Shown piece by piece: positions 19,042 to 46,815 of a stretch of DNA of 51,197 nucleotides. The DNA lies in contig SKKK01000432.1 of NCBI GenBank assembly GCA_007121535.1, positions 1 to 51,197 on the forward strand. Direction: 5' to 3'. The position numbers and the translations under genes were made by a program. Under the pieces are notes generated by a model that saw nothing but the letters and a program-made list of their open reading frames with translations, did no database searches and had not been told where the DNA came from. This stretch comes from Planctomycetaceae bacterium (GTDB lineage: Bacteria; Planctomycetota; Planctomycetia; Pirellulales; Pirellulaceae). The number at the start of each line of letters is the position of its first letter. The first letter of the stretch is position 1.

Positions 19042-19566
19042 ATGAGCAGGGGAACGATTCTTGGTCTTGCCATCCTGGCCGTGGCCGGCCTGTTATTTGT
19101 GGCCGCCGCTCCGCAGGATGCGTTCGCTGGTCATGGCTATGCCGTGACCACCAGTGCACCGGTCACGACCAGTGCCCCGGTAACCACCAGTGCGCCCATG
19201 ACGACGTGGGCTCCGGTGACCACCAGTGCACCTGTCACGACCAGTGCCCCGCGAGTTCGGGTGCACCGGCATCGGCATCGGCATTGGGGAACGCCCATGA
19301 CAACTTGTGCGCCGGTGACAACCAGCGCGCCCGTCACAACCAGTGCGCCGGTGACGACCAGCGCGCCCATGACGACCTGTGCGCCGGTGACGACCAGCGC
19401 CCCGCGAGTGCACATGCGTCGCGTGTGGGTTCATCCCACGACCACCTGTGCGCCGGTGACGACCAGTGCTCCCGTGACGACCAGTGCTCCGGTGACCACC
19501 AGTGCCCCGGTGTACAGGTACAGGGTGGCCCCGATCCAGAAGGACGAGAGCCCCGTTGAAGATTGA
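19042..19566 (+). CDS. Secreted TTSAP hexapeptide-repeat protein
   Basis: The ATG at 19042, 11 bases after GAGGAGG, gives 174 residues. Residues 1-29 are a signal peptide (cleavage near AFA-GHG). The mature protein has 16 copies of (V/M/T)TT(S/C/W)AP in blocks of 6, 6 and 4, separated by two basic linkers: His/Arg-rich (VHRHRHRHW) and RVHMRRVWVHP. The first repeat of blocks 2 and 3 and the fifth of block 2 carry Cys in place of Ser, so disulphide cross-linking is possible. It is probably cell-surface or matrix material. It has its own promoter and terminator. No enzymatic role is visible. Confidence 0.85.
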   Translation: MSRGTILGLAILAVAGLLFVAAAPQDAFAGHGYAVTTSAPVTTSAPVTTSAPMTTWAPVTTSAPVTTSAPRVRVHRHRHRHWGTPMTTCAPVTTSAPVTTSAPVTTSAPMTTCAPVTTSAPRVHMRRVWVHPTTTCAPVTTSAPVTTSAPVTTSAPVYRYRVAPIQKDESPVED

Positions 19567-32114: not shown

Positions 32115-32435
32115 GGATCGGCGAGACAATAGCGGTCGTATTCGGTTGGATGGTCGTAACGGGGCCGGAAGTCGTCTTCGGCCAGCGACCAACCACATGG
32201 AAACGAGCCTGTCCGAAAACGAGTCCCGACCCCTTCTGCGCACTCCCACCAAGAAGTACCCTAGTGCGTTGTCCAGGCGAAATCTTGGGGTCGCGATGAG
32301 TGAGCGGCACGGCGCTAGCCGCCGGTGGCGTCCAGAACCGGCGGCTAGCGCCGTGCCGCTCACAATCCGCATTTTTCGCCTAGACAACGCACTAGCCGGG
32401 TGCTTCATTGCCGATTCCTAACGAGAAGGTCGCCC
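32115..32435. other. Intergenic region holding repeat copy A
   Basis: No gene is supported. It contains the 135-bp nested palindromic element at 32261-32395. The remaining parts show nothing notable. Confidence 0.5.
32261..32395. repeat. Nested palindromic element, copy A
   Basis: The outer 22-bp inverted repeats begin ctagtgcgttgtccaggcga and pair with one mismatch. Inside is a second, perfect 24-bp inverted repeat (gagcggcacggcgctagccg...) around 12 bases. Copy B at 46680-46815 is nearly identical (one inserted T and two substitutions). Size, terminal repeats and dispersal make it MITE-like; there is no coding capacity. CTAG at each end may be part of the repeat or a target duplication. 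Confidence 0.9.
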
Positions 32436-35173: not shown

Positions 35174-35246
35174 GGCGAAACTCCTATGGGTGGACCGTTT
35201 TGGGGATATTGGGCTCGGCAAAGGAACAAGGGTTAGGTTTTCAAGT

Positions 35247-35333
35247 GAGCGGCAAGGCGCCGGTCCTGGTGGGGTCGGGAACCGGTGGCTAGCGCCATTC
35301 CGCTGGGAACCGGTGGCTAGCGCCATTCCGCTC
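35247..35333. repeat. Degenerate copies of the 24-bp repeat unit, locus C
   Basis: A shortened unit (35247-35264) is followed by two tandem units in the opposite orientation (35282-35304 and 35310-35333, ccggtggctagcgccattcc...). They lie in the ribF-nrnA spacer. They are related to the inner arms of copies A and B and to array D, but lack the outer terminal repeats. Confidence 0.8.
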
Positions 35334-35340
35334 AGTCTTG

Positions 35341-40939: not shown

Positions 40940-41176
40940 ATGGCCGAAGTCATATGCGTTATCGACGATAAACACGTCCCCCTTTATCGCATCATGTGGG
41001 TCTCAGACCTGCCGCATTTCTGCGGAAACGAGGATTGCATGTGCGAGGGACGATACGAAGTGCGATTGGAAATGGATGAATCGGTATGGGCCAGTCGCGA
41101 AGAGCGCGACGAGGTCCTGACGGCCTTGGAAGCGTGGGCGGGCGGCGGCACGGAACCCGAGGAGGGCTGGAATTGA
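40940..41176 (+). CDS. Small acidic protein with a Cys cluster
   Basis: The 78-residue frame has a GGGAG ribosome-binding site and starts MAEVICVIDDKHVPLYRIMW. The cluster FCGNEDCMCEG (Cys28, Cys33, Cys35) plus Cys6 could bind a metal. The C-terminal half is acidic and helical. No family was recognised. It is probably cotranscribed with proC. A repeat array begins 66 bases after its stop. Confidence 0.65.
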   Translation: MAEVICVIDDKHVPLYRIMWVSDLPHFCGNEDCMCEGRYEVRLEMDESVWASREERDEVLTALEAWAGGGTEPEEGWN

Positions 41177-41527
41177 CGGCCATCGGCGGCTCGCGGCCAA
41201 CCACGACCGTCGCCGTCGCTTCGGATCGGCAAAGAAAAATTTGAGCGGCACGGCGCTAGCCACCGGTCCCGTGAGCGGCATGGCGCTAGCCACCGGCGCC
41301 CCTGAGCGGACTGGCGCTAGCCACCGGCGCCCCTGGGCGGACTGGCCACCGGCTGCTGTGCGGCAAAAACCGGCGGCTAGCGCCGTGCCGCTCAGGTGAA
41401 AAACCGGCGGCTAGCGCCGTGCCGCTCAGGTGAAAAACCGGCGGCTAGCGCCGTGCCGCTCACGGAAACACCGACAATTTTTTCTTTGCCGACCCTTATA
41501 CGACAGCGAACATCACAAAGGAATGCT
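41177..41527. other. Intergenic region holding repeat array D
   Basis: No gene is seen. Almost the whole stretch is occupied by the array listed at 41226-41492. The last 35 bases lead into efpL. Confidence 0.6.
41226..41492. repeat. Inverted repeat array D with outer inverted repeats
   Basis: Three 24-bp units and one shortened unit (41243-41352, gagcggcacggcgctagcca...) run in one orientation. Three further units (41370-41393, 41404-41427, 41438-41461) run in the other, separated by identical aggtgaaaa spacers. The block is enclosed by tcggcaaagaaaaatt (41226-41241) and its inverse at 41476-41492 (one base longer). Orientation flip and very short spacers exclude CRISPR. Confidence 0.9.
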
Positions 41528-42091
41528 ATGCTGGCAAAAGAAATCAAACCGGGTTCCGTTGTCAACTATCAGGATGCGCCCATTCTGATCGAAACGGTCA
41601 ACGTCCAAACCCCCTCGGCACGCGGGGCGGCGACACTGTATAAATTCCGAGGCCGGCATCTGGTCAGCGGTCAGAAGACGGACATCACGCTGAAGGGTAC
41701 CGAGTCGTTGGACGAGGCGGATTTTGAACGCCGCCCGGTCAACCTGATGTATACCGATGCGACCCACGTGCATCTGCTGGACCAGACCGATTACAACCAA
41801 TACTCGCTGCCGTTGGAACAAGTGGCCGAACAGATGCGTTACGTCACCGAAGCCTTGCAAGGCATGTCGGCGCTGATCTACAACGGCGAGTGCGTCGGGT
41901 TGCAACTTCCGTTGACGGTCGAGTTGACGATCACCCAGTGCGATCCGGCGGTGCGAGGCAATTCGGCCACGTCTCGAACCAAGCCGGCGACGCTGGAAAC
42001 CGGCTTGACCGTCCAGGTCCCCGAATACCTGAAGCAGGGTGAACGGATCAAGATCGATACTCGTACAGGCGATTTTCTTTCCCGCGTTTAG
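41528..42091 (+). CDS. efpL: Elongation factor P-like protein EfpL/YeiP
   Basis: This 187-residue translation factor has three beta-barrel domains (KOW-like N-domain and two OB domains). It eases ribosome stalling at proline-type sequences. The loop QTPSARGAATLYKFRG matches YeiP/EfpL, with Arg32 at the tip where EF-P has a modified Lys. RNKPATL-like RTKPATLETGLTVQVPEYL also matches YeiP. The ATG at 41528 is chosen because the longer frame runs through repeat array D. It is followed 16 bases later by an Asp-rich gene and then ileS. Confidence 0.9.
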   Translation: MLAKEIKPGSVVNYQDAPILIETVNVQTPSARGAATLYKFRGRHLVSGQKTDITLKGTESLDEADFERRPVNLMYTDATHVHLLDQTDYNQYSLPLEQVAEQMRYVTEALQGMSALIYNGECVGLQLPLTVELTITQCDPAVRGNSATSRTKPATLETGLTVQVPEYLKQGERIKIDTRTGDFLSRV

Positions 42092-42107: not shown

Positions 42108-42491
42108 ATGAACAAGAACCCGTTAGATGATGCCGCTTTCACGATGACTTGCGAAGCGCTGCCCGGCGAACACGCCCCCGCACCGGCCGAGTGGCTGGAG
42201 GACGACGAAAGGGGCCTGCCGCCCGTCGCCGGCCAGATCGATGATTTCGATGACTTCGAAGACGACGATTTCGATGACTTCGATGATGATTTCGATGATG
42301 ACTTCGAGGAGGAGCTGGAAGACGAGTATACCCTGGACGACGACGAATTCGCGGACGATTTGGACGACGACAGCGACAATCCGGGCAGCGGTGATGAAGA
42401 GGATGCCGAACCGTCTGACAAGGACGATGACGAGGACGACGACGGCGTCTCCGATGACGATGACTTCGACGACTTCGATGTGGAGACGTGA
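42108..42491 (+). CDS. Asp/Glu-rich low-complexity protein
   Basis: This 127-residue frame starts at an ATG 16 bases after efpL and ends in TGATG shared with the ileS start. From residue 45 it is almost only Asp, Glu and Phe, with repeated DDF and DDD runs. The first 40 residues are ordinary. It is presumably disordered, strongly acidic and cytoplasmic. No family was recognised. Its conserved-looking position between two translation genes argues that it is real; DNA-mimic or ion-binding roles are speculation. Confidence 0.75.
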
Positions 42492-46679: not shown

Positions 46680-46815
46680 CTAGTGCGTTGTCCAGGCGAA
46701 ATCTTTGGGGTCGCGATGAGTGAGCGGCACGGCGCTAGCCGCCGTTGGCGTCCAGAACCGGCGGCTAGCGCCGTGCCGCTCAGAATCCGCATTTTTCGCC
46801 TAGACAACGCACTAG
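46680..46815. repeat. Nested palindromic element, copy B
   Basis: This is a 136-bp copy of the element at 32261-32395: the same 22-bp outer inverted repeats and perfect 24-bp inner arms. It differs by one extra T near position 27 and two substitutions. It lies between purN and a truncated Rpn-like gene whose remaining frame begins 12 bases further on. Confidence 0.9.

Follow-up and report, generated by a model that had tools for sequence, protein, structure and literature searches.

A REP array upstream of efpL in a planctomycete, very probably MITE-borne and part of a class 3-like TnpA_Y1 transposase system

REPs are known to occur in planctomycetes, together with tyrosine transposases flanked by terminal inverted repeats (Di Nocera 2013, PMC3733652); in the portion of that paper available to us, R. 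baltica is named among the species with a plethora of such transposase genes and repeats (PMC3733652). The class 3 TnpA_Y1 transposases were described in 2018 from 24 proteins, mainly from planctomycetes, with a 155-aa profile (Quentin et al. 2018, PMC6006769). According to the part of this description that was accessible, these proteins carry the motifs NHVH, W[TA] and YV[VI][AENY]EQ, their genes are flanked by several atypical structures with the foot CnGA, of which there are about 600 copies in Solibacter, and the class is more REPtron-like than IS-like (PMC6006769).

We analyzed a window of 51,197 nucleotides (contig SKKK01000432.1 of assembly GCA_007121535.1) from a Planctomycetaceae bacterium (Pirellulaceae), in which a REP array element spans positions 41223-41495, upstream of efpL (Table 1). 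The original prediction had described four units in one orientation and three in the other between inverted copies of a 16-nt repeat. The three units of the right arm were found as predicted, whereas the left arm consists of three intact units and a damaged fourth. The periods had been read correctly, with unit spacings of 30 and 31 in the left arm and of 34 in the right arm, where the units have the opposite orientation. As had also been claimed, the right-arm 26-mers are identical, and so are the two GGTGAAAA spacers between them. Outer inverted repeats are indeed present but were quoted too short: their arms (41223-41243 and 41475-41495) comprise 21 nt and are 90% complementary. The single-strand fold of the array reached -202.4 kcal/mol, compared to -121.7 kcal/mol (sd 4.9) in 200 shuffles, and a fold energy so far below that of the shuffles indicates more than chance. 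The array lies between a 78-aa open reading frame downstream of proC (40940-41176) and efpL (41528-42091), with ileS further along. ProC and IleS scored over their NCBIfam cut-offs, and EfpL reached 202 of 216 bits, so that efpL is the best but a sub-threshold name. No Rfam family was matched at gathering score within the window. Between efpL and ileS, we observed an Asp-rich, highly acidic open reading frame (42108-42491), and a similar stretch adjoins efpL in the congener G073. The window also contains imperfect tandem repeats of 18/36 bp (19147-19512), which are not related to the REP unit.

Table 1. Coordinates of the array and of related features in the window.
Feature	Position	Strand	Remark
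Left flanking triplet TTC	41220..41222	.	Presumed decayed target-site duplication; TTA/TAA flanks at other copies
Left terminal inverted repeat, MITE-like frame B	41223..41241	+	Frame B end search matched 41222-41234
REP unit 1, left arm	41242..41267	+	
REP unit 2, left arm	41272..41297	+	
REP unit 3, left arm	41303..41328	+	
REP remnant 4, left arm	41334..41353	+	20 nt, part of core deleted
Central linker, left arm to right arm	41354..41368	.	
REP unit 1, right arm	41369..41394	-	
REP unit 2, right arm	41403..41428	-	Identical to right-arm unit 1
REP unit 3, right arm	41437..41462	-	26-mer identical
Right terminal inverted repeat, frame B	41477..41495	-	Frame B end search matched 41484-41496
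Right flanking triplet TTA	41496..41498	.	Presumed target-site duplication
Two tandem REP units, 28-bp period	35281..35334	-	Degenerate frame B end seems near 35215
Frame A MITE, head-to-head REP pair	32262..32394	.	133 bp, CTAG both edges
Second frame A MITE, head-to-head REP pair	46681..46814	.	134 bp, CTAG both edges

The unit belongs to a dispersed family of hairpins with stem covariation. It is a 26-nt hairpin with a TGAG foot, a 3-bp outer stem, a 5' bulge, an inner stem of 3-4 bp and a 4-nt loop, an architecture seen in an alignment of 24 distinct units that were chosen from this genome and its relatives and all have the foot TGAG. In this alignment, 91.4% of the cells were paired compared to 77.0% after shuffling, the covariation score was 0.330 compared to 0.107, and two-sided changes were found in 21 cells compared to 7.0; none of 500 shuffles reached any of these three values, although such counts are not probabilities, since the 24 sequences share kinship. 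Two of the five covariation measures were weak, namely the number of pairs with two-sided change (reached by 57 of 500 shuffles) and that of further pair types (27 of 500). We counted 525 copies of the 11-mer core GGCTAGCGCCG (258 + 267 on the two strands) across the 706 contigs (9.32 Mb) of the genome, compared to 62 (25 + 37) for the reversed control. Core counts across 149 genomes of the same family were patchy. The core outnumbered its control in G066 (303 versus 58), G147 (172 versus 109), G065 (71 versus 15) and G086 (70 versus 44), the counts in G101 were 76 versus 82, and the congeners G009, G073 and G104 had 2, 15 and 1 cores, respectively. Despite the 303 cores of G066, a class 3-like gene was not detected in that genome. 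The G066 loci listed (L159-L173) mostly show a variant unit, TGAGCCGACGGCGCTAGCCGCGGGT.

We then surveyed unit clusters in 826,029 bases of the genome, made up of the window and 40 stretches on contigs matched by the prior search, which is not a fair sample of density. The survey yielded 106 units in 38 clusters (control, 2). All 27 clusters with units on both strands point inwards (>+<+); five further multi-unit clusters are one-stranded and six consist of a single unit. With a crude gene caller that assigned 82% of the sequence as coding, 31 of 35 classifiable clusters were intergenic and 4 lay inside genes, and 3 more were at edges. There was no clear preference for gene context, since 23 clusters lay in co-directional, 5 in convergent and 3 in divergent gaps, compared to 331, 92 and 85 of all gaps. 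The family thus has the imperfect hairpin with a conserved 5' tetranucleotide, the high and extragenic copy number and the inverted pairing of REPs and REPINs. The canonical GT[AG]G foot of the GTAG superfamily is not present, the feet being TGAG, TCAG, TTAG and TAAG.

A search for a Y1/RAYT transposase had been suggested in the original prediction, and this lead proved fruitful. The genome contains 11 matches to PF01797, two of them in one frame, and REP units flank one of the 11 within the fetched flanks: a 158-aa gene on contig C550, which lies between five units and four units (control, 0). A Y1 gene bracketed by unit clusters in this way is the arrangement of a REPtron. The C550 protein has the motifs SNHVH, WT and YITEAQ. 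Its Pfam Y1_Tnp match is weak (27.2 bits; cut-off, 23), it scored far under the cut-off of the RAYT model NCBIfam NF047646 (15.7 of 80 bits), and it was also below the cut-off of the NCBIfam IS200 model. Judged by its NHVH, W[TA] and Y----Q motifs, together with extended N-terminal conservation, the protein fits class 3 TnpA_Y1. In the search of the family genomes, a relative was found in 61 of 149, and the congeners had no match. Scanning named genomes with a 21-sequence alignment gave 458 relatives, of which the best 80 were kept; by their titles, 79 of these 80 are what we take to be planctomycetes, and the remaining one (L280) is named just "bacterium". In the 30 relatives with given loci, H-x-H, W and Y-4-Q were present in all 30 and an N before the first H in 29 (T in L090). 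A structure model of one relative (L270; 158 residues, 67% identical to P0001), built from 35 sequences, had a pLDDT of 87.6. This model matches the transposases of IS608 and ISDra2, a Sulfolobus transposase and the REP-bound RAYT 4er8 (Z 10.5), and the 30 chains returned by Foldseek at E values of 1.2e-05 to 2.6e-04, including 4er8, were IS200/IS605 and RAYT transposases (Z 10.5-15.1). The predicted fold is consequently that of a Y1 HuH enzyme. A sequence search against solved structures returned no Y1 relative, PHROGs gave one weak transposase match, and no plasmid-borne relatives were matched in the plasmid collection.

The hairpin family is physically tied to the Y1 gene across many genomes. 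Using 30 loci of relatives, we derived a fixed rule for the hairpin (T-N-A-G foot, 3-bp outer stem, inner stem of at least 3 bp, loop of 4 nt), and the rule was then used on 66 loci, 14 of the 80 having been dropped for overlap. In the 30 loci, hairpins were present on both sides of the gene in 26, on at least one side in 27 and on neither in 3, and their total was 174 compared to 2.2 expected from Markov shuffles. The 66 non-overlapping loci contained 163 hairpins compared to 5.0 expected, located on both sides in 35, on at least one side in 44 and on neither in 22; in the subset with full flanks (n = 56), 40 loci had hairpins on at least one side and 33 on both. The feet in these 66 loci were TTAG (58), TCAG (53), TGAG (48) and TAAG (4), and their proteins had H-x-H in 64 cases and Y-4-Q in 65. 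Loci lacking hairpins were commoner toward the distant end of the list of relatives, indicating that either the hairpins differ there or the association was lost. With the fixed TNAG foot, unit similarity was correlated with protein identity (Mantel rho, 0.355; 0 of 5,000 permutations; n = 27), in a test that cannot tell shared descent from co-adaptation. The correlation was weaker (rho, 0.248; 9 of 2,000; n = 28) when a loose scan left the foot free, in part since the top repeat was often taken in the wrong register, and a narrower set of feet gave a rho of 0.647 on 22 loci, some of whose hairpins are spurious.

The outer inverted repeats form a separate, MITE-like frame, here called frame B, of the form GGATCGGCAAAG..CTTTGCCGATCC. 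With at most one mismatch, its end AGGATCGGCAAAG matched 130 sites in the genome compared to 8 for the control, from which we estimate some 60 copies. The original prediction had set out beforehand that it would fall if a genome-wide search found the arrangement once only; both the unit and the outer repeat were found to recur. The window's own decayed end is too specific as a query: it gave 26 matches, with unit cores at 5 of the 26 loci. A 16-nt end with at most one mismatch was found 56 times in this genome, 20, 6 and 4 times in the congeners, 9 times in G089 and 0-5 times elsewhere. The frame B end (at most one mismatch over 10 nt) was not found in the transposase locus on C550, and the outer repeats are therefore not part of that locus. 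Under a stricter rule, the fetched sequence contained 29 paired copies, 26 in this genome and 3 in G009 (reversed-end control, 0). Of the 26 copies, 19 carry REPs, 5 the palindrome CCCTCTCCC, 1 the palindrome TCGGGAGTCG and 1, which is doubtful, none of these; the three G009 copies carry the last two of these kinds of cargo, and a laxer pairing rule added two further TCGGGAGTCG copies. The triplets flanking the 29 copies were identical in 6 cases, in each of which they are TTA or TAA, and differed at one position in 16, at two in 4 and at three in 3 (control pairs, 0); those of the window copy (TTC/TTA) differ. Frame B thus shows the hallmarks of a MITE, with terminal inverted repeats, a target-site duplication, multiple copies and no gene. 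An autonomous relative was not recognised in this draft genome among the listed terminal repeat sites (100 of 130) or the loci read. At one G009 locus (L249), a REP pair comes after a frame B end, the right end not being recognised, and the combination of REP and frame B therefore seems older than this species. A palindrome GGGGTCGGGAGTCGTTTTCGG..CCGAAAACGACTCCCGACCCC was also noted in the relatives, complete or as one half, either enclosed by frame B or following one of its ends; it occurs free elsewhere as well (L254, L257, L250, L255 and L263; in the window at about 32216-32240). At L260, in G073, the sequence after a frame B end is a GTAG-tagged palindrome (GTAGTCATCACGCTCCG..), another REP type in the same frame.

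A second frame, frame A (TAGTGCGTTGTC..GACAACGCACTA), encloses a head-to-head pair of units in an element of typically 133 bp. Its ends were found 211 times with at most one mismatch (control, none), corresponding to an estimated 100 copies or so in the genome, and exact ends occurred 138 times here and not at all in the other 148 family genomes. The 4-mers at the two edges agree in 11 of 17 complete copies (CTAG in 9, GTAG in 2), edge types that we find reminiscent of IS5-family duplications. In two copies (L115, 1331-1462; L143, 1500-1632), the two flanks are the two parts of a REP split at the CTAG of its loop, and in a third (L135, 1314-1518) one flank resembles half a REP; in all three cases, frame A seems to have landed in a REP at the CTAG of its loop. 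The L115 element also sits within a copy of frame B. An autonomous element for frame A was not recognised. Among the 38 sampled clusters, 14 were labelled as frame A, 7 as frame B and 17 as neither. One frame A label was false: a lax pattern had matched the transposase gene at L228 (6053-6248), and this cluster was counted as unframed. About half of the clusters (20 of 38) thus lie within frame A or B, and 18 have no frame end within 60 bp.

The site of the array is empty in two congeners. The small open reading frame and efpL are separated by 351 bp in this genome, by 54 bp in G009 and by 42 bp in G073, and the orthologous site contains neither unit nor frame in these two genomes, which suggests that the element arrived recently. 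In 14 same-strand runs of at least three units, spacer similarity was 0.80 within runs (n = 55) compared to 0.14 between runs (n = 91), a pattern expected of local tandem duplication; a few same-strand runs have uneven spacers. Judging from the spacers, both arms of the array probably grew in this way. The recent local expansion originally proposed is thus supported in two respects, the array-specific spacers speaking for expansion and the absence from the two congeners for a recent arrival of the element.

In our view, the array is very probably a cluster of REP/REPIN-type repeats that belong to a TnpA_Y1 (HuH) transposase system resembling class 3 and that reside in a MITE. By analogy with described systems, the Y1 HuH transposase would recognise and cleave a single-stranded hairpin with a 5' TGAG foot and could mobilise units or head-to-head pairs. 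A head-to-head REP pair would have become the cargo of frame B, presumably a DDE-type MITE, which would have inserted before efpL after the split from the two congeners. Each arm would then have been extended by local tandem duplication, as the spacer pattern suggests, to three to four units on the left and three on the right, with spacers specific to each arm. If the contents resembled REPs only incidentally and no Y1 transposase were involved, the element would be just a DDE-type MITE. Such a reading is in line with the dispersed frame formed by the outer repeats and with the share of sampled clusters found in frame A or B; however, the clusters without a nearby frame end include those at the Y1 gene, and flanking units are also found at relatives of this gene in other genomes, and we consider it improbable.

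We likewise attach little credence to the notion that the array serves the host by regulating efpL, be it as a terminator, an attenuator or an mRNA-stability element. Two congeners, with efpL 96% and 90% identical, lack the array at the same site, the unit core is present hundreds of times in the genome, the three terminator-like matches in the region are all on the minus strand, and the contexts of the clusters are not obviously unlike those of all gaps, even though the genes on either side are co-directional, some 30 bp separate the array from the efpL start and the fold of the array is extremely stable. Most likely, the array is selfish, and any polar effect on efpL would be incidental. Near-identical units at regular spacing might also recall a CRISPR, an integron attC or a plain minisatellite array; these were rejected, the first and the last in agreement with the original prediction, in view of spacers that are repeated within an arm instead of being unique, opposed arms, a dispersed unit and the lack of an Rfam match at gathering score in the window, and we give them practically no weight. 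Beyond a REP cluster housed in a MITE, a wider scheme can be proposed, to which we lend rather less than even credence: two unrelated transposition chemistries might feed one REP family, with HuH hairpins loaded into DDE-type MITE frames that spread them. Several unrelated palindromes would be exchangeable as cargo of frame B, frame A would land on the CTAG of the REP loop, and REPs in this genome would owe their amplification mainly to hitch-hiking on MITEs and not to Y1 transposition.

These observations are of interest in two respects. More work was asked for in the accessible part of the 2018 description of class 3 from 24 proteins (PMC6006769), and the 458 relatives, their shared hairpin with a variable TNAG foot and the correlated divergence of hairpin and protein provide a panel for tests of hairpin choice by HuH enzymes. 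Moreover, REPs nested in two MITE-like frames point to a way in which REP families can spread besides REP transposition, and one that can be tested. Among the matches listed for literature on REP-like repeats or MITEs in Planctomycetes or Rhodopirellula and on REPs in MITEs, with most subscription journals outside the coverage, there was no description of REP-bearing MITEs in planctomycetes. The BrickBuilt MITE of Porphyromonas gingivalis, as far as its description was available (PMC4596501), is likewise an intergenic MITE with a tandem array, of a 23-nt unit; its repeats have no spacers, whereas the array described here has opposed REP arms linked to a Y1 gene located elsewhere. With REPINs or BIMEs and their RAYTs, as presented in the accessible parts of the literature (Bertels and Rainey 2011, PMC3116915; PMC3733652), the present system shares a hairpin with a 5' tetranucleotide, inverted pairs, extragenic location, a gene flanked by its own repeats and tandem clusters. 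Unlike them, it has no GT[AG]G foot, its protein is far from reaching the NCBIfam RAYT cut-off, and about half of the sampled clusters lie in MITE-like frames. With class 3 TnpA_Y1, to the extent that the description could be compared, it has in common the planctomycete host, the NHVH, W[TA] and Y----Q motifs, flanking atypical hairpins and high copy number. The foot apparently differs: it is published as CnGA, in a text that does not give its register, whereas here T-N-A-G lies next to the stem, with TGAG following a C in 30 of 123 cases. Further differences are the 24 proteins of the 2018 set compared to 458 relatives here, and the MITE-framed copies, of which the accessible text of PMC6006769 makes no mention. 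The system is thus of a known general kind, most likely a selfish repeat family, and the REPs nested in two MITE frames are its unusual part.
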